Below the pieces are notes generated by a model. The model was not told the origin of the DNA. It searched no databases and was given only the letters and a program-made list of their open reading frames with translations. The position numbers were made by a program, and so were the translations under genes. From the NCBI RefSeq assembly GCF_946478805.1, contig NZ_CAMLDC010000003.1, forward strand, positions 62,001 through 126,000: a stretch of DNA of 64,000 bases, given 5' to 3'. Source of the DNA: an uncultured Fluviicola sp. Its GTDB lineage: Bacteria > Bacteroidota > Bacteroidia > Flavobacteriales > Crocinitomicaceae. This document shows positions 4,075-34,653 of this stretch, in pieces; positions within the stretch are counted from its first letter, which is position 1; each line of letters starts with the position of its first letter.

Positions 4075-4497
4075 TTATTTTACCCTTTCAATCCCATTCG
4101 TAATCCCGCTTTTTATCATATTTCCATACCCGTTGTCAGGCAATAGATTTGCAAACGAAAATGCTAATTGATAGTTTTTTATTGCATTGTCAAAGTCCTT
4201 TAGATCTTCATAACATTTAGCAATGTTTAAATATAACGATGGGTAAGTTCCTTTAATAATGTCATCATTTATTTTCAATGCTAATTGCAAAGCTGTTTCG
4301 TCCCATCTCAATTTATCTGCAACACTTTTTTGATGTCGGGCCACATAATGAGCCGCAGTAAATTTTTCGAATTCGTTTGTTGCTTCATTCCATGCTTGCA
4401 GAAAATATTTACTTGCTTCTTCGTGATCACCTTTTCCTTCCATTTCCATACCTTGAGCACAGAGTTTAACTATTTTGTTGTTTGGGTCGAATTGCAT
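4075..4497 (-). CDS. TPR-like protein
   Basis: A 140-aa soluble protein built of helical repeats. AQGMEMEGKGDHEEASKYFLQ and NIAKCYEDLKDFDNAIKNYQ show the small-large residue spacing of tetratricopeptide repeats (A/G at 8, Y/F at 11, A at 20, with the closing helix). TPR proteins are protein-interaction scaffolds; no partner is suggested by neighbours. It begins at an ATG at 4497 and ends at TAA. Confidence 0.65.
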   Translation of the reverse strand: MQFDPNNKIVKLCAQGMEMEGKGDHEEASKYFLQAWNEATNEFEKFTAAHYVARHQKSVADKLRWDETALQLALKINDDIIKGTYPSLYLNIAKCYEDLKDFDNAIKNYQLAFSFANLLPDNGYGNMIKSGITNGIERVK

Positions 4498-9240: not shown

Positions 9241-9894
9241 TTATCTTCGAGTCGATATCCAAGCATTAAATCTAGGAGATTTTGAGCGTATTTTTTCTAA
9301 TCCAATAATCTCTGCAATGATATTCCCATAAACAATTTTATCATATCCATCAATTATTCTCATCAAACGATGAGAAGGTGATGTATGTCGGGTATTATTT
9401 ATCATTTCTGGATTTGAATAATCTCTAAATACTTGCTCTAGTTCAGGTAAACCAATAAGTTCATTTTTTGGTATTACATCATGAAAAATCTGTTTCTCAT
9501 TAAATAAAAGCCCTTCAAATTCGTGTAGTTGAATGTAAGGAATGTATCGTGGTCTTAATTCTTCATTGATGTCCTCAAACATTGCACGCTCCATTTCGTC
9601 CATTCTTTGATTTTTATCTTGTACTCGCTCTATCTCTTCCCATCTAGGAAAAGAGTGTTTTTTATATAGACCATAATAGTCAATCAAAGTGGTCACGTAA
9701 GCACTTCTATCATGCTTCAAATGCTGTTCAATTTGCTCTTTGATATATTTCCAATTAACTACTCCTCCCATAGATTTCTTAATCAATGGTGGTTGAATAT
9801 GTATATTTAATTCTACGAAATGAGGAGCTAACATTGTCAAACAAAATTCTCTTTCTGTTTCTCCTTCACAAATGATAATTATTCTTTTCATCAT
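9241..9894 (-). CDS. DUF4276 protein (TOPRIM-like), probable defence effector
   Basis: 217 aa. The N-terminus IIIICEGETE carries the EGxTE glutamate of TOPRIM-like DUF4276 proteins (E10/E14), followed by TLIDYYGL with D72 and the family segment HEFEGLLFNEKQI. The gene starts on the base after the stop codon of the AAA ATPase, so the two are translationally coupled. In OLD and PARIS defence systems an ABC-type ATPase is paired with a TOPRIM nuclease. An analogous role as a nuclease or RNase effector held by the ATPase is inferred. Confidence 0.75.
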   Translation of the reverse strand: MMKRIIIICEGETEREFCLTMLAPHFVELNIHIQPPLIKKSMGGVVNWKYIKEQIEQHLKHDRSAYVTTLIDYYGLYKKHSFPRWEEIERVQDKNQRMDEMERAMFEDINEELRPRYIPYIQLHEFEGLLFNEKQIFHDVIPKNELIGLPELEQVFRDYSNPEMINNTRHTSPSHRLMRIIDGYDKIVYGNIIAEIIGLEKIRSKSPRFNAWISTRR

Positions 9895-10956
9895 TTAAGG
9901 ATTTGGTTGACCACCTTCAATTAGATTTCGTTTCCAAAGATCATCAATTGTATAATCATTTAGCCAACTTGCTAAATCTTCTTCTTTAAGCCGATTAAAA
10001 ACAGAATTCCCCTCAATCTGATCCACGGTAACAATGTCATTAGGTCCAAAATGACTGATCAAATCAGTAGATTGTGTTGCAATGATAACTTGGCATCTTT
10101 TTTTAGCCACAGATTTAATCATTCCTGCCAACTTTGCAATTGCTGCAGGATGCAAGCCTAACTCTGGTTCATCAATGATAATTGTATCCGGTAAGTTCGG
10201 TTGAAAAAACAACGTTGTTAATGCAATAAATCTAATAGTTCCATCAGACAAATCAGTAGCACCATATGTAACTTCACTAAATTTATCTGTCCATTGTAAT
10301 CGAACATACTGGTCACTTGGCTCAAGATAAAAATCTGAAAAATAAGGTGCTATCGATTGAATAGTTTTTACAATCTTATTATATACCAACTGATTTTTTT
10401 TTCTAATATCAAATAAAAAAGCAGCTAAATTATGCCCATCTCTATAAAGGAAATTCACATCATTTTCAATGTGGCTTAGCTTTGTAAATGGGGAATTATT
10501 ACTAGTATCGTGAAAGTGATACTTTTTAAAGCCGTTTAAATATCGAATAACATGTGGAGATCGAAAATTGTCAGTGACTTTTAATCTAGATTCACTAGCC
10601 GAACGGCTGATATCTCTTCCGGAGTCACCATTATAATGTAATCTCTCATCTACAAATATGAAACCATCAGCTCCTATATTCAATCTTGCTGAATATCCAT
10701 TTACTCCATTATCAAATTGGATCATAAATGAAATTCTATTTGTTACTTTCATTCCATGATGTAATATTTTATCTGGTCCACCAGACATTGCTACTACATC
10801 ATTTAGTTTTCGATTATATATATTATTCAAAAAATCAAAGAAGGAGACAAAATTACTTTTCCCACTTCCATTTGCACCAATGAAAATATTTATTGGCTCA
10901 ATAAGAACCTTCTGATTTTTGATTGACTTGTAACCATTTATTTCAATGTAATCCAT
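9895..10956 (-). CDS. AAA15/OLD-type ATPase, defence-associated
   Basis: 353 aa. Residues 1-35 (MDYIEINGYKSIKNQ, Walker A GANGSGKS at 27-34) are typical of the AAA15/RecF-like ABC ATPases. The signature LSDGTIRF, Walker B IIIDEPELGLHP and the switch strand IIATQSTDLI follow in order, with the coiled-coil region shortened as in AAA_15/AAA_21 members. It pairs directly with the downstream DUF4276 gene. Known relatives sense phage proteins and release a TOPRIM or nuclease partner; that role is inferred here. No promoter motif was identified. Confidence 0.8.
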   Translation of the reverse strand: MDYIEINGYKSIKNQKVLIEPINIFIGANGSGKSNFVSFFDFLNNIYNRKLNDVVAMSGGPDKILHHGMKVTNRISFMIQFDNGVNGYSARLNIGADGFIFVDERLHYNGDSGRDISRSASESRLKVTDNFRSPHVIRYLNGFKKYHFHDTSNNSPFTKLSHIENDVNFLYRDGHNLAAFLFDIRKKNQLVYNKIVKTIQSIAPYFSDFYLEPSDQYVRLQWTDKFSEVTYGATDLSDGTIRFIALTTLFFQPNLPDTIIIDEPELGLHPAAIAKLAGMIKSVAKKRCQVIIATQSTDLISHFGPNDIVTVDQIEGNSVFNRLKEEDLASWLNDYTIDDLWKRNLIEGGQPNP

Positions 10957-16403: not shown

Positions 16404-18345
16404 TTAAATATCATCAAATTTCACTTTGGGCAAACCCTTCACAATTTCAACAGTTTGTACACTCACATTAATAATACTCAATAGTAAATCCAAAATATAT
16501 TTCGGATTACCAATGTCATCTGCCCAATCATTAGGATCATTTGTAATTCCTGAATCTTTGTGAGTTGTGACTGCGTATCTTTCCATAATCCATTCGATCG
16601 CAGATTTCCCATTCACAACATATTCATACGCTTCATCTGGAATGTTGGAAATAGTGATTTTACTATTGTAAATGATTGAGTTTTTTTGATCCTTTTTTGG
16701 GAAACGCATTTTTTCTATTTTGAAAATAGAAGAATCCACACCCTTTCCATTTTCAAATGAGGAAACATCAACACCGAAATAAGCAGGAACAGTTTCGTAG
16801 TTCAAATGCAGCTCCGCTAATTTTCTACCAGCATTACTAAATGCCCAAAAGTCCTTTACATCTTCGATCAACGGCAAACGAGGAAGCATTTTCTTTAAAT
16901 CATTAGCAAATAGTTCTCTATACTCTCTATTGTGCAAAAAACCATACACGTAGTAGAAAAGATCTTCTTTCGAAACATTCTTTCCGTATTGTTTTTTTGC
17001 ACGTTCTAAAATAAAATCTGAAATTCCATCTTTTCGAATGTATTCTGATTCACTTTCATCATCAAACAAACCTTTTTGTAGACTGTTATTTTGTTCATAG
17101 TAATAAAGTGGAAAACATTGTGATTTTTCCAAAGTGTCAAGATTCGGAATCACATCTGTCAATAACACTGAAAATGGACGACTAGCACTTATTCCTGTAA
17201 CACAGATTACTTTGTTTTCAAGCTGATTATTCGGAAACAATCGTTTGTTTTGATAAAGCATTGCATTCAGATCCTTATGAAAATATAGATTAGATTTAAC
17301 AAAAGGTCTGTATAATGTAGTTGTCAAACTTGAATCATCAAAAGATTGCAATTTATGCTTTTCAATATCCTCAATAAAATTACGGTTCCAACTAATTCTG
17401 TTTGGATTTGTATCTATAAATGACTCAGCTTTTATTTTAGGGTCATTAGATTTTTCTTTAAGAAATCCTTCAGATTGAGTATTAAAAAACTCAATAGACG
17501 ATTTAACATTAGTACTTAATTTGTTTTTTGAAAAATTTAAAACCCACGCATCTCTTCCAGTTGCTAGTCCTAAAGAATGAGTGATAAAAAAACTATTGGT
17601 ATTGAGTTCAAATTTTTTGTCTGACTGTGATGGAATAAATGTGCCATAAATATCATTTCTCTCGTTTATCCAATCACCGTGTTCATTAGGACTTAAAGTT
17701 TTCCAAACTAACTTTTGATTATCGAATGAACCGAAATCTTTTAATATTTTTAGTTTTTCCTCTCGGCTTAAATAATCTCCAATGTCATGGTAGTAAATTG
17801 TCGCTTTATCCTTTTTATCTTTTGTATTCTTTACTAATAGAGTAATCGAAATGGGAGTTCTTGAACCGGACCCAAAAACTTTACCCCCTTCCTTTCTGCT
17901 TAATTCTCCACTTGTACGTTGATTTCCTCTAAGGTTAAAAATGTATATTGAAGAAAATTCATTTTCTAAAGATTTTCTTAATCCATCCATTCCATTTCCA
18001 TCAATCCATGCCCCATTTGACACAAAACAAATGATTCCCCCATTAGGATCTAAACGGTCTGAGCTCCACCTAAATGCTTTTATGTAAGAGTCATATAATG
18101 CTTTTACCGATGTTGCTTTACTTCCTTTAGCATAAGTTTGTTCGATTCTTGAATCCAAACTAACATATTTCTGATTTTGAGCTATATCATTAGCTGACTT
18201 TTGTCCTACGGAATATGGGGGATTTCCCATGATAACACGAAGTGGTGAGCTCTTCTGTCTAGCAACACGTTCCGAATTTTGCGGGAACATTTCAGAAAAC
18301 ATTTTTTCACTGTTATCTGATTCACCTAATTGGAATGTATCTGTT
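16404..18345 (-). pseudogene. C-terminal half of a Type ISP-like RM enzyme, split by a transposon
   Basis: Holds methyltransferase motif IV as NPPY (VIMGNPPYSVGQ), then GGIICFVSNGAWIDG and a long region (LATGRDAWV, LYRPF) typical of the target-recognition part of LlaGI/LlaBIII-type single-chain enzymes. Motif I and the whole nuclease-helicase part are on the other side of the transposon at 24126-27083. The first methionine in this half is at 18302, but the reading frame continues back to 18353, where it meets the 8-bp duplication in frame as IVLTDTFQLGE. Alone it cannot be an active methyltransferase, because the AdoMet-binding motif is missing. Confidence 0.85.
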
Positions 18346-18353
18346 AAAACAAT
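18346..18353. repeat. Target-site duplication, left copy
   Basis: AAAACAAT, identical to 24118-24125. Eight bases is the duplication length typical of the IS1595 family. On the minus strand it encodes IleVal plus two bases of Leu of the interrupted gene. Confidence 0.9.
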
Positions 18354-18391
18354 GGCATTAATCCCCTCAGACCATGTCGCCTGATTATATA
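18354..18391 (+). repeat. Left terminal inverted repeat of the transposon
   Basis: Begins GGCATTAATCCCC, followed by CAGACCATGT. It is imperfectly complementary to the right end. Confidence 0.8.
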
Positions 18392-18456
18392 AGGGTTTTA
18401 TAACCTTTATTTATTAAATTTTCTATTTTAGTAATTCACAATTAAAATTCACTGAA

Positions 18457-18597
18457 ATGGATCCTCAATTACAAGCCTTACAGAACATAGTCACTAAGCT
18501 TAAAAATGAACTTGACCAATTAAAGGCTAGAACAAAACATCTTGAGAACGTGGTTGACCACCTGTACAAAGAGAATCAAAAGAAATCTAAGAACTAG
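18457..18597 (+). CDS. 46-aa coiled-coil protein, transposon passenger
   Basis: A small frame MDPQLQALQNIVTKLKNELD... ending KENQKKSKN. Leu/Ile/Val occur at heptad positions (LQALQNIVTKLKNELDQLKA), a short coiled coil with a basic tail. It overlaps the 59-aa minus-strand gene tail to tail by 11 bp. No Shine-Dalgarno is seen, which is usual here. Unknown function; it could be a small dimerising DNA-binding or antitoxin-like peptide. Confidence 0.4.
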   Translation: MDPQLQALQNIVTKLKNELDQLKARTKHLENVVDHLYKENQKKSKN

Positions 18598-18766
18598 TTT
18601 TTTCTATAATTATTGGTTTGTAAATCCGCAGTTCGGTTTTAGGGTTTACAGCTAAGAAACCCTTTCCTGACATATAACTGATTTCTACTGTGAAACCTTC
18701 TTGTTCTAACTTATGAACTTCTTCATTTACTTTTTTGAGAAGTTCTACTAGTTTTTGCTCTTTCAT
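18587..18766 (-). CDS. 59-aa passenger protein, unknown function
   Basis: MKEQKLVELLKKVNEEVHKL, then EQEGFTVEISYMSGKGFLAV and a short C-terminus. A helix followed by beta strands, a plausible compact alpha/beta fold. The start ATG at 18766 lies 13 bp after the terminator that closes the CPBP gene. Confidence 0.45.
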   Translation of the reverse strand: MKEQKLVELLKKVNEEVHKLEQEGFTVEISYMSGKGFLAVNPKTELRIYKPIIIEKTSS

Positions 18767-18778
18767 ATTATTCCAAAT

Positions 18779-18808
18779 AAAAAAGCCAACTCGTTTTTGA
18801 GCTGGCTT
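18779..18808 (-). terminator. Terminator of the CPBP gene
   Basis: AAGCCA-a-CTC pairs with GAG-c-TGGCTT around a GTTTTT loop. On the minus strand a run of T follows the stem. It lies 37 bp beyond the CPBP stop codon. Confidence 0.8.
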
Positions 18809-18844
18809 ACGTTAAACATTATGTTTTCTAATTAGTCTTTCAAT

Positions 18845-19630
18845 TCAAAGGGCATACAAACCTTTGGTGTCCTCTTTTTTCATTGTGAAACGTAGAATGA
18901 GAAGAAGAACTAAGCATACTATCCCAAAAAATATTTGAGTTTGAATTATATCCGTTATGGGATTTTCTTCTGCGATGGAAGTATCTTTCAATTTGAATAC
19001 TGAATTATACATGCCATGGAAATTAACCAAACCATGTAATACAGCTACCAATATGATGTTCTTAATCCGGATAAGAAGACCTTGAAAAAGCAGACCTAAA
19101 AGGAATGCAAAAATCATTTGATTTAGGACAGAAAATATATCTAATTGACCTGTTATAAGATTGCCAATGTGAAGTAGTGCAAAAAGAGCTGATGTAGTGA
19201 CAATCTGCCCTAGTACACTTCTTTTCGGGTATGCCACAACTACCAAACCAAAAAGAATCCATCTGCATAATACTTCTTCCATAAGACCTACGGAAAAACA
19301 CTTGGTGTAATAGGCTGTTAGATGTTCCCAACTATAACGGATTCCTATATAAGGTAAAGAAAAACGAAGAGATAAAAAGAGTAGTAATCCAACCCCAATC
19401 AGCACACCTATACTATTCCTCAGCACCTTCTTTAAATCGAAGAAAGTTTCTTTTTTGAACGCAAGATAAAAACAAAGCACTAATAGTAATCTACCTGCAC
19501 TGGATATAATCAAAGCTGTTGTTCCTTTTTCATCTAATTGATAAAGATGTATGATTCCATTAACCATAAACTTTGTCAACATTATGGAAGCAAGAAGTAA
19601 GAGTAGAAAATATAGAAGAAACTTTCTCAT
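18845..19630 (-). CDS. CPBP-family intramembrane glutamic protease, transposon passenger
   Basis: 261 aa with about seven hydrophobic helices. Motif 1 is EExxxR (E118, E119, R123 in GLMEEVLCRW), motif 2 is H154 in LFALLHIGN and motif 3 is H199 with N203 in AVLHGLVNFHG, the full active site of CAAX/bacteriocin-processing (Abi) proteases. Members trim prenylated proteins, mature peptides or give immunity. The gene lies downstream of a lipoprotein gene in the same orientation but separated by a terminator-like hairpin, so expression may be partly independent. The neighbouring lipoprotein is a possible substrate (inference). Confidence 0.8.
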   Translation of the reverse strand: MRKFLLYFLLLLLASIMLTKFMVNGIIHLYQLDEKGTTALIISSAGRLLLVLCFYLAFKKETFFDLKKVLRNSIGVLIGVGLLLFLSLRFSLPYIGIRYSWEHLTAYYTKCFSVGLMEEVLCRWILFGLVVVAYPKRSVLGQIVTTSALFALLHIGNLITGQLDIFSVLNQMIFAFLLGLLFQGLLIRIKNIILVAVLHGLVNFHGMYNSVFKLKDTSIAEENPITDIIQTQIFFGIVCLVLLLILRFTMKKEDTKGLYAL

Positions 19631-19635
19631 GTGCG

Positions 19636-19674
19636 AAAAAACAAAGACTCCTATACCAATTGATACAGGAGTCT
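19636..19674 (-). terminator. Terminator of the lipoprotein gene
   Basis: AGACTCCT pairs with AGGAGTCT (8 bp). On the minus strand it is followed by TTGTTTTTT. It lies 11 bp beyond the stop at 19685 and just before the CPBP start. Confidence 0.85.
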
Positions 19675-19684
19675 ATTTATAAAC

Positions 19685-20257
19685 TTAGTCAAAAAAACTG
19701 ATTTCGCCTTTACATGCGTAGATTACAACACAACCACCCCATGAACAAGGGAATCCCATAGCGGAGTACCCTTCATAAGTGGTTTTAAGCTTACATTTAA
19801 ACGTAATGTGAAATTCAGAAGCTGCTTCATCATAGTGTTCAAAATTTTCAGCAGCAAAGCCCATATTAGCAGGTACATCTGTAATAGATGCTATTGGTTT
19901 TTTAATTGCGGAAGTGTAAATACCATCTCCAGCAACTTTGTCATTTATCTGTCCATCATCAGTGTAATCTACATTATTGACAATATAAGAGTCTAACGGA
20001 ACATAAGAATCATCAAATTTTAACAAGGAAAACTGTTGTGCAAATTTTGTCCCACCATCTACCAACAAATGGTCTTGGGGTACAATAACAACCGACCGAA
20101 AAAATAGTGCTGTAATTGCTCCTGTTTTTTCTACACCCTGTGCTTGTTCTGTTTTAATCGTTTTAGAAGTTGGTTTAACTTCTTGCTTGTTACAAGCTAC
20201 TAAAATTGTTGCTCCTGCAATTGCAAGGAAGCTGATTCCAAAAATTACTTTTTTCAT
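19685..20257 (-). CDS. Lipoprotein with choice-of-anchor-X-like domain, transposon passenger
   Basis: The ATG at 20257 gives 190 aa starting MKKVIFGISFLAIAGATILV-AC, a lipoprotein signal with lipobox cysteine at 22; an upstream ATG at 20284 would hide it. The middle (DYTDDGQINDKVAGDGIYTS) resembles the choice-of-anchor-X type of beta domain. The C-terminus is short and unusual: CSWGGCVVIYACKGEISFFD, with three cysteines in 13 residues and two aromatics at the end. It is the likely partner or substrate of the adjacent CPBP protease (inference). Confidence 0.6.
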   Translation of the reverse strand: MKKVIFGISFLAIAGATILVACNKQEVKPTSKTIKTEQAQGVEKTGAITALFFRSVVIVPQDHLLVDGGTKFAQQFSLLKFDDSYVPLDSYIVNNVDYTDDGQINDKVAGDGIYTSAIKKPIASITDVPANMGFAAENFEHYDEAASEFHITFKCKLKTTYEGYSAMGFPCSWGGCVVIYACKGEISFFD

Positions 20258-20410
20258 ACTGTGAATATTAATTAAGTGGGGCAAACCTAATAACCAAAAA
20301 TTATTCTGTCAACAGTATTTACCACATATTTTCAATTGCGGTTTTCCGAATAAGTATATAATATGCCCTCAAAACATATTGTTAAATTTTGAATAAATTT
20401 CTTGTTTTAT

Positions 20411-20441
20411 ATTGTAAGTTATAATATAAGTAGTATATTTG
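20411..20441 (+). promoter_or_regulatory. Promoter of the winged-helix gene
   Basis: ATTG at 20411-20414, exactly 19 bases, then TATATTTG at 20434-20441. This fits the Bacteroidota -33/-7 pattern closely, 28 bases before the ATG at 20470. Confidence 0.75.
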
Positions 20442-20469
20442 AAATCAGAAACCAATTAAGTTATTAATT

Positions 20470-20847
20470 ATGGACTACAAGAACATCTTAAAGGAACGGC
20501 ATGAGGAGTTGCTAAAACGTAAAGAGGAAATTAGTATAGAATTAGGCTCTATAAATACAGAGCTAAGTGCCATTAGTGAACTATTTAAACTTGACACTCC
20601 TAAAACTGCGGTTGTAAAACCTGCTATTACTTCTGATAAATATCCTGTTGAAGGGACTTTAAAAGATAGAATTGTTTACACACTTCAACAGATAGGTTCG
20701 GGTGGAGCTAGTGATATTGAAAATTTCATGCGCCAACATGAATCGAAAGTCAGTAGCAACTCTGTAACTATCACAGCTTCCCAACTACTAAAAGGGGGTG
20801 TGATTAAAGGATACAAACAAGGACTTAAAAATATCTATTCATTATAA
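20470..20847 (+). CDS. Coiled-coil plus winged-helix-like protein, transposon passenger
   Basis: 125 aa. Residues 1-40 are a charged coiled coil (ILKERHEELLKRKEEISIEL). Residues 58-125 (LKDRIVYTLQQIGSGGASDI, ITASQLLKGGVIKGYKQ) have the helix-helix-helix-wing order of a winged-helix DNA-binding domain. It lies 50 bp upstream of the tRNA-like gene and on the same strand as tRNA and transposase, so it could regulate them (inference). The base composition matches the other passengers. Confidence 0.55.
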   Translation: MDYKNILKERHEELLKRKEEISIELGSINTELSAISELFKLDTPKTAVVKPAITSDKYPVEGTLKDRIVYTLQQIGSGGASDIENFMRQHESKVSSNSVTITASQLLKGGVIKGYKQGLKNIYSL

Positions 20848-20857
20848 AGGGTAATAA

Positions 20858-20885
20858 AAATCCCCCTGCGCCAACAAGGGGATTT
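20858..20885. terminator. Hairpin between the winged-helix gene and the tRNA
   Basis: AAATCCCC pairs with GGGGATTT around a 12-nt loop. The T-run exists only on the minus strand; on the plus strand the stem is followed by AGTATTG, so read-through toward the tRNA is possible. The right arm abuts a TAGTATTG sequence (20885-20892) that is one mismatch from the -7 consensus and 5 bp before the tRNA. Confidence 0.55.
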
Positions 20886-20897
20886 AGTATTGTCTAA

Positions 20898-20983
20898 GGA
20901 AGTGATGGAGAGTGGTAACTCCGCCCAGTCTTAAAAACTGGTGATCTGTCGAGGATTTGTGGGTTCGACTCCCACCGCTTCCG
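20898..20983 (+). tRNA. Class II tRNA with UAA anticodon and serine-type body
   Basis: An 86-nt cloverleaf. Acceptor GGAAGTG pairs with CGCTTCC (U6-G67 wobble), D-arm GGAG/CTCC with loop AGTGGTAA, anticodon arm CCAGT/ACTGG with loop CTTAAAA (anticodon UAA, reading Leu codon UUA), a 5-bp variable arm GATCT/GGATT around GTCGA, and T-arm GTGGG/CCCAC with loop TTCGACT. The discriminator is G73. Leucine tRNAs need A73, whereas serine tRNAs have G73; the acceptor stem is the same as that of E. coli tRNA-Ser(UGA). CCA is not encoded. The gene ends 17 bp before the transposase ATG. Charging identity is not proven; Ser is inferred. Confidence 0.85.
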
Positions 20984-21000
20984 CTAAACTGCAATAACTT

Positions 21001-21909
21001 ATGAGCAAATCTACAAAAAATTACACAATTCAACAATTTAGCCAAGATTATCCTGATGATAATACTTGTTTAGACAAAATATTTACTATTCGGTTTGGAC
21101 AATTATCTCACTGTCCTAAGTGTTCTGAAGCTTCAAGATTCGTTCGTTTGAAGAATCGCAAATGCTACCAATGCTCTGAATGTCTGCATCAAATTTACCC
21201 TTGTGCGGGTACTGTATTCGAAAAAACCACTACACCACTCACTACATGGTTTTATGTAATCTATTTATTCACTGTTTCCAAGAATGGTGTCTCAGCTTAT
21301 GAAGTTCAACGATTGACAGGAGTCACTTATAAAACTGCTTGGCGAATGTTGAAACAGGTTCGTATTCTTATTTCTACCGGGTTCAATATGACTAAAATGA
21401 ATGGAACAATCGAATTAGACGAAACGTTTGTTGGAGGTAAAAACATCAATAGACATAAGGATAAAAAAGTAGCTAAATCACAAGGTAGAAGTTTCAAAGA
21501 TAAAACTCCCGTACTTGGTATGCTTGATAGAGATACTAAGCAAGTGAGATGCTTTGTCGTACCTGATACAAAAGCAAACACTATTCAACCTATCATTAGA
21601 CAATTCATTGAGAAAGGTTCTGTATTAATGACTGATGAATGGATAGCTTACAAGGGATTAAATGCTGACTATGACCATAATTTTGTTGACCATAGTAAGA
21701 AGATATATTCTGTTGGTGATGTTAGCAGTAATGGTATTGAAAACTTTTGGAGTGTATTTAAGCGAACCATTAAGGGAAGTTATATCCATGTGAGTAAGAA
21801 ATACCTGCAATCGTATGCTAACGAAACATCCTTTAAGTTCAATAATAAGAACTCTGATGTTCCTATTTTTTATCTTGTTTTGGACTTACTACCTTTACAA
21901 GCTTCTTAA
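21001..21909 (+). CDS. IS1595-family (ISXO2-like) transposase
   Basis: 302 aa. The N-terminus has a zinc ribbon, C38-PKC and C55-YQC-SEC, followed by a helix-turn-helix-like region (VSAYEVQRLTGVTYKTAWRM). The catalytic domain has D140 in ELDETFVGG, D212 in MTDEWIAYKG and E247 in NGIENFWSVFKR, matching the DDE core of ISXO2-like IS1595 enzymes. All key residues are present, so it is probably active. The start ATG at 21001 lies 17 bp after the tRNA-like gene, so a single transcript may contain both. Confidence 0.9.
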   Translation: MSKSTKNYTIQQFSQDYPDDNTCLDKIFTIRFGQLSHCPKCSEASRFVRLKNRKCYQCSECLHQIYPCAGTVFEKTTTPLTTWFYVIYLFTVSKNGVSAYEVQRLTGVTYKTAWRMLKQVRILISTGFNMTKMNGTIELDETFVGGKNINRHKDKKVAKSQGRSFKDKTPVLGMLDRDTKQVRCFVVPDTKANTIQPIIRQFIEKGSVLMTDEWIAYKGLNADYDHNFVDHSKKIYSVGDVSSNGIENFWSVFKRTIKGSYIHVSKKYLQSYANETSFKFNNKNSDVPIFYLVLDLLPLQAS

Positions 21910-22027
21910 GATTTTCTTCGTACTCTTCTTTCGTAATTTCATCTAAACCCTTCTCTTTTACGAATTCCTCATGTTTTTCAATGAGTTCTTCCATTGTTGG
22001 TTTAGGTTTGTGTTCTTTCTTGTTCAT
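21863..22027 (-). CDS. 54-aa charged passenger protein
   Basis: MNKKEHKPKPTMEELIEKHE, then EFVKEKGLDEITKEEYEENL and a basic tail. A mostly helical, highly charged peptide read antisense to the last 47 bp of the transposase. Amphipathic helices are regular, which supports coding. No family recognised. Confidence 0.4.
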   Translation of the reverse strand: MNKKEHKPKPTMEELIEKHEEFVKEKGLDEITKEEYEENLKKLVKVVSPKQDKK

Positions 22028-22068
22028 AATGTAAAGTTATGGAATTGAAGCTTTGAATCCAAAAGTGT

Positions 22069-22290
22069 TTATTTCTTCATAGAAACTAACTCTGAAACCT
22101 CAGTATTTAAAGCAATAGCTATCTTAAGAAGTGTCTTTGCTGTGGGATTTGTTTTACCTTTTTCTATTCGTCTGAGTGCTGAATCTTCAATACCAATGGA
22201 AGTTGCAAGATCAATTTGTTTGATTCCTAATTCGGTTCTGCGTGATATAATGTTATCACCAATGATTTTAACGAATTCGAAATCTTCCAT
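22069..22290 (-). CDS. XRE-family transcriptional regulator, transposon passenger
   Basis: 73 aa consisting of one helix-turn-helix_3 domain: IGDNIISRRTELGIKQIDLA, SIGIEDSALRRIEKGKTNPT, and TLLKIAIALNTEVSELV. This is the size and pattern of small Cro/C-protein type regulators. It is transcribed divergently from the 22388 gene, with 97 bp between, and could repress that promoter and its own (inference). Confidence 0.85.
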   Translation of the reverse strand: MEDFEFVKIIGDNIISRRTELGIKQIDLATSIGIEDSALRRIEKGKTNPTAKTLLKIAIALNTEVSELVSMKK

Positions 22291-22357
22291 GAACTAATTT
22301 ACCTGCCATCAAAAGAATTATTCCGAACATAAATGTCCTGTTTTTGATAAAATTCCC

Positions 22358-22365
22358 TATGTTTG
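22358..22365 (+). promoter_or_regulatory. Promoter -7 element for the 22388 operon
   Basis: TATGTTTG matches TAnnTTTG, 22 bases before the ATG at 22388. No clear -33 element at 19 bp. Confidence 0.5.
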
Positions 22366-22387
22366 TGAGAATCAAATTCAAATCACT

Positions 22388-22783
22388 ATGAAATTCTTAC
22401 TATTCATTCCACTATTTGCTGTATTATTAACCACATCCTGTAATAAAGAGAATAAAGATGCTGAATACATTTTAGCTGTTACAGGAAGCGATTATGCAGA
22501 TGATGCATACATTCTTTGTCAGGCAAATGCTGGTATGTTATCTCGTTTAAGTTTGAGTGGCGGAGAAGCTACAATCAATGGAGCTAAGAAATGTAAATTA
22601 TCATTTCTATTTCCTTCTCACACACTTAACAATTATGCACCGGAACATCAAACAGATGGGGATGTAATAAACATAACCATCTATCAGTCCAAGAAAGGAA
22701 AAAAAGGTAAACAAGTTGGGGAAACTTCACTCGCATGTTCTAATTACGATGAGTACCCAACACCTGTTGATATTGAGTGGTAG
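22388..22783 (+). CDS. Lipoprotein, transposon passenger
   Basis: 131 aa. Signal and lipobox MKFLLFIPLFAVLLTTSC place the lipidated cysteine at 18. The mature part has several cysteines and a basic KKGKKGKQVGE segment. No family recognised. It heads a four-gene same-strand run with gaps of 2-32 bp, so the products may form an envelope-associated module. Confidence 0.6.
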   Translation: MKFLLFIPLFAVLLTTSCNKENKDAEYILAVTGSDYADDAYILCQANAGMLSRLSLSGGEATINGAKKCKLSFLFPSHTLNNYAPEHQTDGDVINITIYQSKKGKKGKQVGETSLACSNYDEYPTPVDIEW

Positions 22784-22785
22784 GT

Positions 22786-23316
22786 ATGAATACTGTCGAA
22801 GAAACTTTCTCTCATAATAAAGCTCTCTCTCTAATCACTCTAATAAGAATGATAGTAGAAGCTGTGGAATATCATCCAGACAGAATTCAATTCTTTCTGA
22901 AAACTATGCGGGATTTCAGTGTTAATCAACAAGCATTGGATCTTTTCATTAATAATTTAGACCCAAAGGTATTAGTCTCTCATTTTAATTCTTTTGAATC
23001 CCATCAGAAAGACTACACAATTCTTATAGTTTGGGAATTATTGAAATCTGCTGGAAATATTACAGAGAAAGACTTTTGTACAGGTATGCACGCCTTAGAA
23101 ACAATAGTTGGTATCGAACCTAGTCATATTGAAGGGCTAATTGATAAAATGGAGGTTATAACCAAACAAGTGAATGATACTCCTAGAAATGTAAATATAA
23201 CCTATAACCAAGTTGAAGTTCGAAGTAACAATTCAGAATCAGGACTAAAAGGAATATTAGGCTTCATCATTTTAGCCCTTGCTATTTTTGGACTTGTAAG
23301 TATGTGTAAATCTTAA
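22786..23316 (+). CDS. Hypothetical protein with C-terminal membrane anchor
   Basis: ATG at 22786 (MNTVEETFSHN) gives 176 aa; a GTG at 22777 overlaps the preceding gene by 7 bp. Helical soluble part of about 125 residues, then a Asn/Asp-rich linker, and a C-terminal membrane helix GILGFIILALAIFGLVSMC with KS at the end. This is a tail-anchored topology. No family recognised. Confidence 0.55.
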   Translation: MNTVEETFSHNKALSLITLIRMIVEAVEYHPDRIQFFLKTMRDFSVNQQALDLFINNLDPKVLVSHFNSFESHQKDYTILIVWELLKSAGNITEKDFCTGMHALETIVGIEPSHIEGLIDKMEVITKQVNDTPRNVNITYNQVEVRSNNSESGLKGILGFIILALAIFGLVSMCKS

Positions 23317-23320
23317 AATC

Positions 23321-23578
23321 ATGAAGACAACAACAAACATAAAAGATGAAATAGGAGACATAATGTTTTCATATTTTACTAAAAGAGATTTTGAACTTTT
23401 TAAAAAGGAAATAACTAGTTACGTCGAAAATTTCAAAGAGAATTTTCTTAATAATGAATTGAATCTATTTATCCTTAATAATCTGCTTAAGGATTGCGGT
23501 GAGATGAATGATTCTAACATTAAGCCAACAGTCGGTAAAATTCTTAGTACTTTGACCGCGCTGACAGAAATAGAATAA
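23321..23578 (+). CDS. Small helical hypothetical protein
   Basis: 85 aa, 4 bp after the preceding gene, helical and charged (FELFKKEITSYVENFKENFL). No family recognised. It belongs to the 22388-23910 run. Confidence 0.5.
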   Translation: MKTTTNIKDEIGDIMFSYFTKRDFELFKKEITSYVENFKENFLNNELNLFILNNLLKDCGEMNDSNIKPTVGKILSTLTALTEIE

Positions 23579-23610
23579 CCCTATATTCACAATTTAAAAC
23601 AACATTCACT

Positions 23611-23910
23611 GTGGAAAATCTATCCATACAAGAAGTATACTTGAATTATGTTGATACTTACAACTCAATCATTGAAAGTATGGAGCAGTATTCTACCCGA
23701 CACAAAGGGAAAAGACTTTTTTCAAAAATGTTTATAGATACGTTTAATCATCAAGTCAGTGATTTTTCAAACCGTGTTAGCAATAAAGCTCTTTTCTCAC
23801 ATTTTGTGAACGAGCCGAAAGAAGAGTTAGAATCTTTTAGAGTTAAAATTCTTAAACTCGCAAATGATCTACATGCTAAGTCTCTGACAATGGCAAAAGG
23901 TGAACTCTAA
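23611..23910 (+). CDS. Small helical hypothetical protein, GTG start
   Basis: 99 aa beginning with GTG at 23611 (MENLSIQEVYLNYVDTYNSI). Three predicted helices with a basic middle (RHKGKRLFSKM). It is the last gene of the run and overlaps a 47-aa minus-strand frame at its end. Confidence 0.45.
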   Translation: MENLSIQEVYLNYVDTYNSIIESMEQYSTRHKGKRLFSKMFIDTFNHQVSDFSNRVSNKALFSHFVNEPKEELESFRVKILKLANDLHAKSLTMAKGEL

Positions 23911-24019
23911 CAGCACTTACAATTTCTTCTAAGTACGGATTGATAATTGCAATTTGATTTTTTACAAATTGTTCATACACTCTTATCAGAGCTTCTTGTT
24001 CTGTTTCTTTTAATTCCAT
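23876..24019 (-). CDS. 47-aa hypothetical passenger protein
   Basis: MELKETEQEALIRVYEQFVK, then NQIAIINPYLEEIVSAVRVH and a short tail. An amphipathic helical peptide, antisense to the last 35 bp of the 99-aa gene. Weak but plausible. Confidence 0.35.
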   Translation of the reverse strand: MELKETEQEALIRVYEQFVKNQIAIINPYLEEIVSAVRVHLLPLSET

Positions 24020-24032
24020 TTTCTTATAAATT

Positions 24033-24060
24033 AAAAAAGTCCTACATTTCTGTAAGACTT
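24033..24060 (-). terminator. Terminator near the right end of the transposon
   Basis: AAGTC-c-TACA pairs with TGTA-a-GACTT around TTTC. On the minus strand it is followed by TTTTTT. It would stop transcription entering from the interrupted RM gene. Confidence 0.7.
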
Positions 24061-24079
24061 CACGATTAATATTTTTCTT

Positions 24080-24117
24080 TGTTATTTTAGCCTATATGGC
24101 TTGAAGGTACTAGTGCC
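24080..24117 (-). repeat. Right terminal inverted repeat of the transposon
   Basis: Read inward on the minus strand it begins GGCACTAGTACCTTCAAGCC. It is similar to the left end with scattered mismatches. Confidence 0.8.
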
Positions 24118-27083
24118 AAAACAATACCGTCAAAAGGAATGTACTTTTCTTTTCCAATACCATCATCTGGGTCAAGTGTTGCATCATGGAACGCATTTTC
24201 AATATTTATCGTAGCAATGTAATATGCCAGTAACACAATTTCATTTGCATGTAATTCGTTTTTGTATTTTCGTTCCAGGTCTTTTTGCTTAATCAAGCCA
24301 CTTTGTAATAAACGAGTCATGAAAGTACCTGTACCTGTAAACGGATCCAATATGTGAACATTTTCATCTGAAACAGAACGCCCAAATTCTTTTTTCAGAA
24401 CATCATTTACAGAATGTATGATGAAATCAACTACTTCAACTGGTGTATAGACGATTCCTAATTGTTCCACCATTTTAGGGAAAGCAGTTTTAAAGAATTT
24501 ATCATACAATTCAATAATTATTCGTTGCTTACCTTCTGCATTGTCAATTCCTGCGGCACGTATCCGAACCGATTCATAGAATTTATCAAGCGTTTCAGCA
24601 TCTTTATCAAAGGATTGGTCTTCTAATAAATCCAACATGGATTGCATAGAAACTGAAATCGGGTTGTTTTTCACAAAAGAATATCCCTCGAATAAAGCTT
24701 CAAAAACTGGTTTCGTAATTATGTGCTGTGAAAGCATGTCTATAGCTTCTTGTTCTGCTATTCCCGGATTTATGTTTTTTTGCAATCCTAATAAGAATTT
24801 ATCAAATGCTTTCTGATGCGCACCGCCATCGTTGACTAAGTTTTTGATACGAACAACCTGACGTTCAGCAATTTCAGCTACATTTTTCGCCCATTGTTCC
24901 CAATACCGTCTATCACCAACTTTCTTTACCATTCGAGCGAAAACAACATGCTGCAATTGTTCGAACTGAATTGCTAATTGGTCACTAAAATCTTTTTGAT
25001 TTTTATCGTTGTATGAATCATCAGGGTTGAAACTTCCATTTTCATCGAAATGAGAATCTGGCCGTCCAACTAAAATTTGTGAAGGACGATTTTTGTTTAA
25101 ATCAATCTTATTGATCAGCGCGTTAAACCGATCGTCGTGTGCACGTAAGGCATTCAATACCGACCAAACTACTTTGAAGCGTTCATTGTCATCTAGAGCT
25201 TTGTCCGCTTCTATATCTGAAGGAACAACAACTGGAATAATGATATAACCATATTTTTTTCCTGGAGCCAACCGCATAACACGACCAACAGATTGAACGA
25301 CATCTACCTGTGAATTTCGCGCGGACAAGAAGAGTACAGCATCCAACGATGGTACATCAACTCCTTCACTCAAACAGCGCACATTGGTTAATACCCTACA
25401 TTCATTGTCTTCGGTTTCAGATTTTAACCATCCCAACAATTCATCACGTGCAGGAGCAGACATACTTCCATCGATGTGTTTCGAACTCATGGAAACCATT
25501 TTCTTACCTTTTTCAGCAGGAAGAGAATCAATGTAGGCTTCGGTGGCTGTATTGAACGTACTTGTAATTGTTTTTGAAACTTTGATATTTGAACAAAACG
25601 CAACAGCTCGGCGCATAGGTTCAGGATCTGAATCTTTTATTAATCCTTCATCTCCTAAGATTTGTTTCGATAGTGCATTAATACATCCGATTAATTTAGA
25701 AGCATCATCGGTGTTTATTTCAGATTCTTCATCCGCAATCATTTTTTGTACCGCAGGAGGAATATCATTTTCATTCAATGTTAAAATGAGTACTTTGTAA
25801 TCTGTCAGCAAATTGGATTCAACGGCTTCACCAAAACCAATGCGGTAGATTTCTTCTCCATAAAGAGAATTGTCATCCATTGAACAAAGAATAGCTTCGT
25901 TTTGCGCTGCCTTACTTTTTGAAGTGTCGTCATACAAACGCGGTGTAGCCGTCATATACAGACGTTTCCTTGCCTTAATAAAATCGTTGTTATGTACTTT
26001 TGTAAAAGCCGATTCGTCTTCATTTACCAATGAAATACCTGTTGTTCTATGCGCTTCATCACAGATAATTAAATCAAAAATGGATTCATCACCGTAAACT
26101 GATGCTAAGCTATCCTGCGCTCTAGCTATAACTTCAATCGATTGATAGGTTGAAAACACAACCGTCATTCCAGGCTTTTTATCATTTTTGATAAAACTGA
26201 ATTGATTTAAAATATCACTGACATTTGTAGACGCCGGTAAAGCTAAATCCACTACAGAAGTTGTATCGATATCTTCATTTTTACTTCTGCTTTTAGAAAT
26301 TTCAGGATCCGAACAAATACAAATTGCATTAATTTGTTCACTTGCAAAAGTTGACCATTCGCGCAAGGTTTGGCCGAGTAATGCAATTGAAGGAACTAAA
26401 AAGAGAACCAACCCATTTCCGCCGGTTTCATTTTCAGCTATTTTCAGAGAGGTAAATGTTTTTCCAGTACCACATGCCATTATTAACTTTCCACGTTCGT
26501 TTTCCTTGAAGTGATCATGGGTTAATGTAAGGGCTTTTACTTGATGGTCTTTTAAACTCCGAGTTACTATTCTAGCTTTTTCACCATGAACACCATTTTC
26601 TAACTTCTCCCAATCAATTGCAGATTCATTTAAATCAAACAAATTAAGTCGAGTAACTGATGGAGTTTGATTTTTTATAGCTTCCTGAGCATTTGGACCC
26701 CATTTATTGGTTGTTGAAATCCAAAGTCGATTAGAGAATTGAATTGATTTTCCTTTTTCATTTTTGAATTCACGACCAGAAGTAGAAAGGAAAGAATCAA
26801 CTGCGGGTTTGTCAATTACTGAGGATTCTTGATAGCATTTACACTGTACTGCCCAGTATTTATCATCGTTGGTTAAAGCCACCAAATCAATTCCTGTGTC
26901 ATTTCCTCCTAAATCGTCTTTTCCTGGAAACTCGTTCCATAACCACACCTTTTTAAACGTACTTGCATAGATTGGTTCAGTGAGTAAATAGGCTTGCATC
27001 AATCGTTCAAAACGTTCGCCTTTATCTTTCTCTGAAAATGAATTTTTGCGGTATTTGGTTAAAATCTGATTGAAATTTGACAT
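24087..27083 (-). pseudogene. N-terminal half of a Type ISP-like RM enzyme (nuclease-helicase-MTase start)
   Basis: Residues 20-85 hold a PD-(D/E)xK nuclease core (E23, D66 in GIDLVAL, Q80-C-K82). A superfamily 2 helicase follows: Walker A ACGTGKTF at 203-210, the DEAH box in LIICDEAHRTTG and motif VI QSVGRVMRL. Near residue 930, DPFTGTGTFMTRLLQSG is methyltransferase motif I. The protein then runs into the transposon after FDGIVL and stops nine codons later. Joined to 16404-18353 it becomes 1,635 aa, the layout of LlaGI/LlaBIII-type single-polypeptide translocating enzymes. As it stands, it lacks motif IV and the recognition domain and should be inactive. Confidence 0.88.
24118..24125. repeat. 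Target-site duplication, right copy
   Basis: AAAACAAT, identical to 18346-18353. Confidence 0.9.
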
Positions 27084-33040: not shown

Positions 33041-34306
33041 TTAGCTGATTTTGGTTAATGATTCTTTGGTGGGTTGAGAAAGCTTGTTTCTCAAAACATT
33101 CATATCGTCGCTGACTTTTTGTTCTACAACCTTAGCATAGATTTGAGTGGTGCGAATGTTTGTATGACCAAGCATACGACTAACGGTTTCAATAGGAACG
33201 CCATTGGCAAGTGTGACGGTAGTTGCAAAAGTGTGACGAGCAATGTGCGAGGTCAACTTTTTTTTGATTCCGCATAGATCCACGATTTCCTTTAGGTAAG
33301 AGTTGTAACGTTGATTGCTATTTACGGGTAGTAGCTTATTGTGCTTTCTGCAGTATTCATCTTCCTTGTACTTTTCAATTATCTCTAATGGAATTGGAAG
33401 CAATGGAACACTTTCTTTGGTTCCTGTTTTTTGGCGCAAGGTCGAAAGCCACATACCACCGTCTAAGCCGATCATCACAGCATCGTGTTCAAATTGATAC
33501 ACATCAGCATAAGCGAAGCCAGTATAACAGCAGAAAATGAAAACATCACGAACCTCTTCCAGGCGTGTTGAATGAAGTTCTTTAGTCATGATGAGGTTCA
33601 ATTCATCTTGATTTAGAATTTCCCTTTCTGGATTCGTGTAAGAACATTTGAATTGGTTGAACGGGTTGGATGGAATCCAATCCAAACCAACTGCCAGATT
33701 CATAATCTTTTTTAGATTTTTGATGTACTTATACGCTGTGTTTGATTGAATACGCTCAATGGTCAAAAGGTAGTGTTCAAATTCCGTAACGAACGACAAG
33801 CGTACTTCTGGAAGCGGTTTATCGTTTGTTTTGTAATGCTTCTTCATGAAGTTCTCAACCTTGTTTCGCGTGATTTTATAGCGCGAAAGGGTTTTGGCTA
33901 CGATTTGACCAGCTTTTACTTTCTCAAGCATTTTTAAATTGTGATAGTCGAAAGCTTCTAGAATGGTTTTGTACTTAGGAGCTTCATCTTTCTTTGGCTT
34001 GTTCAAGTATAGATCTCTAAGTTCTTTACTTGTGATAAATCCGAATTTGGTTGTTTCTATTACGAACAAATGAGAAATATCGCTTTTTACTTTGTCCAAA
34101 AAATCATTGATAATTCGTGCGTACTTGTAGGTGTTCTTTACACGACTGGACTTTAAATCCCACATTGATAACGGGATAGAATAAGGTGTAGTGAATTCTG
34201 CTCTTTTACCATCGACGTAAATGCGAATGTACAATGGTGTTAGTTCACCTTTGGTTCTTTGCTTATTTGGATAGAACAAAAAACTTAGCTTTAGATTGGT
34301 ATTCAT
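33041..34306 (-). CDS. Tyrosine recombinase (integrase) of the island
   Basis: 421 aa. An N-terminal Arm_DNA-bind_5-like start (SFLFYPNKQRTKGELTPLYI, RIYVDGKRAEFTT), a SAM-like domain, then the catalytic domain with CCYTGFAYADVYQF, H354-xx-R357 (SHIARHTFATTVT), H381 in LGHTNIRTTQIYAK and nucleophile Y390. As in IntDOT-type Bacteroidota enzymes, the first catalytic arginine is not in its usual place. It adjoins tRNA-Lys with attachment repeats at both ends of the island. Confidence 0.9.
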   Translation of the reverse strand: MNTNLKLSFLFYPNKQRTKGELTPLYIRIYVDGKRAEFTTPYSIPLSMWDLKSSRVKNTYKYARIINDFLDKVKSDISHLFVIETTKFGFITSKELRDLYLNKPKKDEAPKYKTILEAFDYHNLKMLEKVKAGQIVAKTLSRYKITRNKVENFMKKHYKTNDKPLPEVRLSFVTEFEHYLLTIERIQSNTAYKYIKNLKKIMNLAVGLDWIPSNPFNQFKCSYTNPEREILNQDELNLIMTKELHSTRLEEVRDVFIFCCYTGFAYADVYQFEHDAVMIGLDGGMWLSTLRQKTGTKESVPLLPIPLEIIEKYKEDEYCRKHNKLLPVNSNQRYNSYLKEIVDLCGIKKKLTSHIARHTFATTVTLANGVPIETVSRMLGHTNIRTTQIYAKVVEQKVSDDMNVLRNKLSQPTKESLTKIS

Positions 34307-34552
34307 ATTTGCTGTCTTAAAAATTACTTTTTAGCGATTTTCAAAACGCTAAAACAATGCAAATAAGAATCCGCTACAAGTCAATATATGATTGGTTTGT
34401 AGCAATTCTCAGCCAGCAAGATATAACATAAAATATGCTGGCTGAACAGCTAGCTGATTTTTTGATTTTGATTGAATTTATTTGTTTTTGAAGGGAACAG
34501 ATAAGAACTGTAAAACCGGGGCTTGCCCTGAAATTTGGTGGGTATTAACGAA

Positions 34553-34577
34553 GAAAGCCTCCTTAAAGGAGGCTTTC
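34553..34577 (-). terminator. Terminator after tRNA-Lys
   Basis: Perfect 10-bp GAAAGCCTCC/GGAGGCTTTC stem, loop TTAAA, on the minus strand followed by TTCG. It lies 3 bp after the tRNA 3' end and inside the island side of the attachment site. Confidence 0.8.
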
Positions 34578-34579
34578 TA

Positions 34580-34592
34580 GTGATCCCGCTGG
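34580..34592 (-). repeat. Candidate right attachment repeat in tRNA-Lys
   Basis: GTGATCCCGCTGG, identical to 7010-7022. Covers the 3' acceptor strand of the tRNA. Confidence 0.55.
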
Positions 34593-34653
34593 GATTCGAA
34601 CCCAGGACCCATACATTAAAAGTGTATTGCTCTACCAGCTGAGCTACGGAATC
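34581..34653 (-). tRNA. tRNA-Lys (TTT)
   Basis: 73 nt. Acceptor GATTCCG/CGGGATC, D-arm GCTC/GAGC, anticodon stem ATACA/TGTAT with loop CTTTTAA (anticodon TTT), T-arm CTGGG/CCCAG with loop TTCGAAT, discriminator A, no encoded CCA. It is intact; the island is inserted in its 3' end and rebuilds it. Confidence 0.95.

Follow-up and report, generated by a model that had tools for sequence, protein, structure and literature searches.

A class II tRNA that combines a serine-type body with the leucine anticodon UAA lies 17 nt ahead of the ATG of an IS1595 family transposase, which raises the question of why a transposon should carry a tRNA that would deliver the wrong amino acid. The locus is part of a 64,000-nt stretch of DNA from an uncultured Fluviicola sp., referred to as the window. 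The tRNA was scored against serine and leucine models, the ends of the element were located, and related IS1595 elements were surveyed for tRNAs and for sequences complementary to them.

Identity of the tRNA

ARAGORN called the gene as tRNA-Leu(taa) at 20898–20984(+), and Rfam gave an RF00005 match at 20898–20983 with 44.3 bits (E 3.8e-6, gathering cut-off 29), slightly below the 47.7–62.1 bits of nine RF00005 matches of at least 82 nt in one Bacteroidota host. The acceptor stem is paired at 7/7 positions, with A:U at 3:70, and is presumably the same as that of E. coli tRNA-Ser(UGA); the T-stem has 5 bp. The class II fold, the discriminator G73 and the anticodon loop CTTAAAA were found as a previous sequence-only reading had described them. 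Two features which that reading had not recorded, A instead of U at position 8 and one extra base at the junction of D-stem and anticodon stem, may weaken the function of the tRNA. At very low thresholds, ARAGORN returned noise.

For the covariance models, 18 Ser(UGA) and 18 Leu(UAA) genes were taken from a single order, to which the host of the related element L104 (described below) belongs. The window cloverleaf aligned over its full length to the Ser model and scored 53.9 bits with it, vs 39.7 bits with the Leu model, although the anticodon loop favours leucine. As controls, real Ser genes reached 91/52.1 and 85.5/49 bits (Ser/Leu model) and a real Leu gene 53.5/86.5; because these control margins are larger, the Ser-over-Leu margin of the window tRNA is real but smaller than that of ordinary genes. 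A sequence-only profile, from whose sets 7/30 Ser and 1/33 Leu genes with misparsed ends were left out, gave Ser 22.7 and Leu 19.3, and masking of the anticodon arm reversed this order (Leu 9.1 vs Ser 5.1). Among the aligned genes, 18/18 Ser end in G, as does the window tRNA, and 18/18 Leu end in A. In the window tRNA a single unpaired base separates the variable stem from the T-stem, which by eye is the spacing of tRNA-Ser in the Ser/Leu alignments. As UAA is not a serine anticodon, the gene is described as having a serine-type body and not as an ordinary tRNA-Ser. The sequence-only reading had proposed this combination and had named a leucine score above the serine score as the result that would speak against it; the covariance models gave the opposite order, and the reversed one appeared in the masked profile.

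According to passages of PMC11415595, the anticodon is recognised neither by AlaRS nor by SerRS. Since SerRS does not read the anticodon, charging of the window tRNA with serine is expected. In an alignment of the transposase with its relatives, positions encoded by UUA in the window gene coincided with Leu in 128 and with Ser in 17 of 232 cells, gaps included. UUA therefore mostly stands for leucine in this protein and serine there would be an error; a reassignment of UUA in the transposase was ruled out on the same counts.

The carrier transposon

The tRNA is enclosed by an IS1595 transposon of 5,764 bp (18354–24117), the ends of which were located via inverted repeats first found in related elements (Table 1). 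Target duplications of 8 bp are typical of the IS1595 family. The inverted repeats and the target duplication therefore place the tRNA inside a mobile element, and not beside one as a host gene, which bears out the earlier claim of carriage by an IS1595 transposon. Both an ISXO2-like DDE transposase domain and a zinc ribbon were found in the transposase by Pfam, and transposases 69–75% identical to it are among the matches listed; homologues of the window sequence point to Bacteroidota. The ORF upstream of the tRNA is weakly matched by an ORF in the corresponding position of L104 (BLASTP E 3e-6 over 63 columns), and the passenger ORFs 22388–22783 and 22777–23316 had no Pfam matches. The ORFs on either side of the element match adjacent stretches of one type IIG/ISP restriction-methylase model, and it is concluded that the transposon split that gene.

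Table 1 Features of the transposon and of its insertion site in the window
Feature	Position	Strand	Basis
C-terminal part of interrupted type ISP restriction-modification gene	16404..18302	-	PADLOC PDLC03597 positions 1007-1640; PF18135
Target-site duplication AAAACAAT, left copy	18346..18353	.	same 8 bp directly outside both inverted repeats
Left terminal inverted repeat	18354..18377	+	matches repeat of related elements L104/L103/L105; 17/24 identical to right repeat
Passenger ORF, CAAX-protease (Rce1-like) membrane protein	18845..19630	-	PF02517, 46 bits
Passenger ORF, lipoprotein-like by eye	19685..20254	-	no Pfam match; preceded by strict promoter match of Bacteroidota type, 20312-20282(-)
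Promoter match of Bacteroidota type (TTG-N-TAnnTTTG) preceding ORF, tRNA and transposase	20412..20441	+	pattern match only
Small ORF upstream of tRNA	20470..20847	+	ORF list; no Pfam match
Hairpin followed by TTTTTATT, candidate terminator of an antisense-tRNA transcript	20855..20886	-	fold z -3.25; sequence
Class II tRNA with serine-type body (G73); anticodon UAA, 20932-20934	20898..20983	+	ARAGORN, Rfam, covariance models
IS1595 family transposase	21001..21909	+	PF12762 160.6 bits, PF12760 35.8 bits
Strict promoter match of Bacteroidota type directed back over the tRNA, TTG-N-TAGATTTG	21006..21036	-	pattern match
Passenger ORFs 22388-22783, 22777-23316, 23321-23578, 23611-23910	22388..23910	+	ORF list
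N-terminal part of interrupted type ISP restriction-modification gene (insertion site)	24087..27083	-	PADLOC PDLC03597 positions 2-992; PF22240
Right terminal inverted repeat	24094..24117	-	17/24 identical to left repeat
Target-site duplication AAAACAAT, right copy	24118..24125	.	identical to left copy

Several further features of the region were recorded. A short minus-strand ORF after the transposase (21910–22030) is apparently shared with the elements L103, L104, L105 and L109, as judged by eye. A tyrosine integrase gene (PF00589) adjoins a tRNA-Lys gene (33041–34653), which suggests that the transposon lies within a larger island integrated at tRNA-Lys. The gene pair at 9241–10956 matched the PADLOC models HEC-01A and HEC-01B and is a candidate phage-defence system, and an ORF of 3,618 residues with tandem repeats in the style of a surface protein (by eye) extends over 36970–47826.

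tRNAs and complementary sequences in related elements

Single-sequence scans gave no matches to relatives of the transposase, and an alignment query was needed. Among 80 transposase relatives, the element L104 of Taibaiella sp. KBW10 showed the layout of the window, with a tRNA that ends 17 nt before the transposase ATG and lies between inverted repeats with a perfect duplication. Four further Saccharibacteria-type tRNA loci followed, and class-wide and viral-contig surveys then added others. The set that was kept comprises 15 tRNAs at 14 loci from two phyla (the window, L104, L113, L124, L142, L173, L189, L192, L194, L203, L210, L236, L357 and L435). The search beside other IS1595 transposases that had been proposed on first reading hence yielded tRNAs at further loci, but not the same tRNA, as these differ between elements.

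In the kept set, 13/15 tRNAs scored above the Rfam cut-off, and those of L142 and L194 rest on ARAGORN together with their short copies (see below); with permissive filters, Rfam gave no tRNA match at L142 (only a tmRNA below cut-off) and nothing at L194. The L113 tRNA reached 50.5 bits with the permissive filters and was missed with the fast ones. The tRNA is situated between both inverted repeats at 10/14 loci, with a perfect 8-bp duplication at 8 of these (not L192 and L357); only the right repeat was found for L210 and L435, a weak left repeat for L124 and neither repeat for L236.

Near 167 IS1595 transposases, 17 tRNA calls were obtained, repeats and doubtful ones included: L187, L198, L200 and L218 repeat L113, L142, L124 and L104, and L215 (ordinary tRNA-Leu, no copy) as well as L271 and L272 (doubtful) were left out. 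A second survey of 89 transposases contributed two loci, L357 and L435, which were kept for location and copy, whereas L437 repeats L113. Not retained from this survey were the implausible calls at L360, L400, L425 and L427, the tRNA pairs of L401 and L432, one with a T-arm repeat, the five tRNAs of L418 and a tRNA-Gln without a copy at L429. No credible tRNA was found at 25 further Bacteroidia loci (ARAGORN on 25, Rfam on 19), of which L522, lacking Rfam support, and L523, an ARAGORN call only, were left out. Among the examined IS1595 loci, those with a tRNA are in the minority.

Some observations from these surveys stand apart from the counts. At L522, two odd ARAGORN tRNA calls without Rfam support lie upstream of the IS1595 transposase (1107–1289). 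On the viral contig of L271, a tRNA-Thr-like call follows an IS1595-like match and has a 12-nt anticodon-arm copy upstream (4112–4304); it was not counted. The anticodon-arm pattern was also tried as a search tool in viral contigs (102 stretches) and was dropped, eight distinct pattern-bearing tRNAs among the matches listed looking like ordinary Leu(UAA).

Mismatch between body and anticodon recurs in the kept set. G3:U70, the determinant of alanine identity, was present together with A73 in 5/15 transposon tRNAs, none of which has an Ala anticodon, and in 0/117 non-Ala host tRNAs (Fisher 1e-5), a background made up mostly of Leu, Ser and Gly, with misparsed-end genes included and 1/119 omitted for a poor acceptor stem. 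When L142 and L194, both among the five, are excluded, the count becomes 3/13 (approximately 0.0008, calculated by hand). For the host of L104, 37 distinct tRNAs were listed, and 44 for that of L113, element tRNAs included. In both hosts G3:U70 was confined to tRNA-Ala and the transposon tRNA; the latter carries an alanine-type acceptor with anticodon GAA in L104, and anticodon CGA in L113. Serine-type bodies were found in two of the 15, those of the window (UAA) and of L357, where a Ser body carries anticodon CUU (66.2 bits Ser vs 26.8 Leu with the covariance models) and N73 is G, followed by CCA. ARAGORN reported four-letter anticodons for L142 and L173, which therefore have lengthened loops, and a two-letter one for L203. 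By eye, the tRNAs of L124, L173, L189 and L435 are perhaps arginine-type and the second tRNA of L357 perhaps histidine-type; which enzyme would charge those of L192, L203, L236 and L435 is uncertain. The second L357 tRNA (4391–4465) has C73 and its own upstream complement. Taken together, IS1595 elements of Bacteroidota and Saccharibacteria that carry tRNAs form a recurrent class, in which the tRNAs differ and many have a mismatched body and anticodon or a loop of the wrong length.

Ten Saccharibacteria-type loci had been found by their upstream tRNA alone (L113, L124, L142, L173, L189, L192, L194, L203 and L210, and in addition L215), and 9/10 have an exact copy of 11–15 nt (11–13 or 15) of the anticodon arm of their own tRNA, located 36–71 nt downstream. 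The exception is L215, with its ordinary-looking tRNA-Leu, where no copy was found. At L210 the tRNA was found first by Rfam, and a 13-nt copy was then sought and found. L236, L357 and L435 were kept because they have a copy; it concerns the anticodon arm in L435 and L236, and in L357 a 15-nt stretch is complementary to the variable arm of the serine-type tRNA. When the strand opposite the tRNA is read, a -10-like box is followed by the copy and then by a hairpin, mostly with a U-rich tail (by eye). The small gene is on the tRNA strand in L435 and upstream of the tRNA in L236. The complement of the second L357 tRNA measures 9 nt (11 with one G-U pair) and lies behind a TTGACA promoter-like box.

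Shuffled flanks attained the observed copy length at a frequency of 0–0.016 per locus for the 12 loci with a copy. For 143 host tRNAs, the longest anticodon-arm copy within 250 nt was 10 nt and occurred once; repeats of at least 11 nt were found for 12/143, but in other parts of the tRNA. The L113 complement has no stretch longer than 7 nt in common with any of 43 host tRNAs and so appears specific to its own tRNA. The copies vary in sequence between elements while complementarity is kept, as expected from selection for pairing.

No short antisense gene of this kind was found in the window, nor in L104. Within the 64 kb, no exact copy of at least 11 nt of the window tRNA was detected, and a wobble-tolerant search of the window element gave nothing convincing, the anticodon arm scoring at background level; the best duplex with the tRNA (-26.8 vs -24.2 in three shuffles) falls in coding sequence. 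A different arrangement is predicted here, with a strict promoter match inside the transposase gene reading back across the tRNA towards a hairpin (Table 1). The pattern follows the promoter consensus of Bacteroidota; strict matches occurred in shuffled 150-nt stretches at a frequency of 0.006 and 15 times in the whole window on both strands, overlaps included. The window element has only three distinct strict matches, of which two are ahead of ORFs and the third faces the tRNA. The promoter match and the hairpin predict an antisense RNA of approximately 120–150 nt that would cover the entire tRNA and the start of the transposase gene. L104 has a hairpin at the corresponding place and a weaker (relaxed) promoter match, and the hairpin of the window is absent from the list of a consensus terminator scan. 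As the window has no short copy, its antisense prediction draws on the promoter pattern, one hairpin and the weak, relaxed match in L104. This predicted transcript and the paired antisense genes of the relatives go beyond the sequence-only reading.

The hairpins before the tRNAs of the window (20855–20886) and of L104 (~2866–2893) have a common loop, TGCGCCAACA or its reverse complement, and are oppositely oriented. A role of this loop as a guide was considered and dropped, since the loop points the other way in L104 and the motif is also present at other sites.

Proposed role and comparison with known systems

The account preferred for the window, held with moderate confidence, is that the tRNA is a miscoding tRNA carried as transposon cargo, which would aid persistence of the element either as an RNA-RNA poison-and-antidote pair or as a tightly silenced mistranslation module. 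The element would transcribe the tRNA and the host would charge it according to its body; any free tRNA would then put serine at leucine UUA codons. An antisense RNA from the same element would pair with the tRNA in the cell and block its entry into translation, a step for which complementarity is present in the relatives and predicted in the window. In the Saccharibacteria-type elements, the tiny adjacent gene would supply this RNA, with its 11–15 nt complement usually directed at the anticodon arm. If the element were lost, the antisense RNA would disappear first and the tRNA would stay, so that, by analogy with addiction modules, toxicity would hold cells to the element. Of the functions listed in the sequence-only reading, a mistranslating tRNA has become the best-supported because tRNAs of related transposons are repeatedly mismatched and UUA in the transposase stands for leucine; a processing or leader element lost ground as a general role because L357 has two tRNAs beyond the 3′ end of the transposase gene, one of them on the opposite strand. 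A generalisation to the whole class is quite possible but tentative: an RNA-only addiction module would be carried by IS1595 elements in at least two phyla, with miscoding tRNAs on anticodon-indifferent bodies (charged by alanyl-, seryl- or other synthetases) as the poison and a dedicated antisense RNA as the antidote, and the stable tRNA, set free when the element is lost, would poison the proteome.

That a cellular tRNA-Ser copy was captured by chance and drifts without function in the transposon, with UAA as a neutral mutation, is unlikely. A8, the extra base and the modest Rfam score would be in line with such a history, as would the scarcity of tRNAs among the examined Bacteroidota IS1595 loci, most of which have none, and the lack of a short antisense gene in the window. 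However, the cloverleaf still aligns over its full length to the Ser model, L104 has a different mismatched tRNA at the same place and with the same 17-nt spacing, the mismatches among the 15 tRNAs of the 14 loci are non-random, and matching complements accompany nine of the ten tRNAs found without reference to them. The spacing shared with L104 and the promoter match ahead of the upstream ORF could also be read as signs of a leader element, in which RNase P and RNase Z would excise the tRNA from an ORF-tRNA-transposase transcript and so set the 5′ end or the amount of the transposase mRNA. This is decidedly improbable in view of the position of both L357 tRNAs and of TTGACA-type promoter-like sequences between tRNA module and transposase, for example in L113 and L142 (by eye), and it leaves the mismatched identities unexplained.

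Adaptive mistranslation, in which host or element would profit from protein diversity generated under stress by regulated insertion of Ser for Leu, makes the same molecular prediction as the miscoding tRNA, and UUA accounts for 2.2% of the 10,329 codons in 15 window ORFs. It is nevertheless given little credence: nothing was found that indicates a benefit or control by stress, anticodons differ among related elements, and the antisense genes suggest that the tRNA is kept off. Finally, the match of the copies to tRNA sequence, with a separate copy for each element, would suit a complementary RNA that directs the transposon into tRNA genes in the style of bridge or guide RNAs. Such a guide is highly improbable, given that the window element inserted in a restriction gene and not in a tRNA, that the L113 complement has so little in common with host tRNAs, and that the 8-bp duplications vary in sequence.

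If the preferred account of a miscoding tRNA restrained by antisense RNA is true, code-breaking tRNAs would represent a novel type of selfish weapon. Such a weapon would cost little, need no protein and be difficult to counter, as the host synthetases that do the charging are not easily altered. The idea can be tested directly, since each tRNA is paired with its own complement, and the pairing provides a search rule for further cases, namely a tRNA with a nearby copy of its anticodon arm. Allo-tRNAs, reportedly described by Mukai et al. in 2017, are among the closest known systems and share serine identity with a non-serine anticodon. Passages of PMC7609411 describe serine-type bodies with many non-serine anticodons, which in E. 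coli tests inserted mainly Ser and Ala. Their acceptor branches are of the 8/4 or 9/3 type, whereas the acceptor stem of the window tRNA has the usual 7 bp, and in these passages neither an antisense gene nor IS1595 is mentioned for allo-tRNAs (PMC7609411). Among the literature matches listed, titles and abstract openings mentioned no tRNA carried by IS1595 and no tRNA paired with an antisense antitoxin.

The RNA-RNA logic resembles that of type VIII toxin-antitoxin systems such as CreTA, in which, according to PMC12548467 and PMC8501985, both partners are RNA and the antitoxin can be an antisense RNA, and which are associated with mobile or selfish loci. Complementary genes were observed in the IS1595 relatives; for the window only a full-length antisense transcript is predicted. 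The toxins described in PMC12548467 sequester rare tRNAs; here the candidate toxin is the tRNA itself. Toxin-antitoxin pairs of Tn3 transposons are likewise passengers, but are gene pairs (PMC7157771), whereas both partners here would be RNA and are carried on IS1595. The evolved CUG-reading tRNA-Ser and tRNA-Ala of yeasts have resulted in codon reassignment or ambiguity in their hosts, according to passages of PMC11415595; here the tRNA is on a transposon. If the proposal is true, the published guess that odd serine tRNAs are part of mobile elements or toxin-antitoxin systems would gain a concrete genetic layout.
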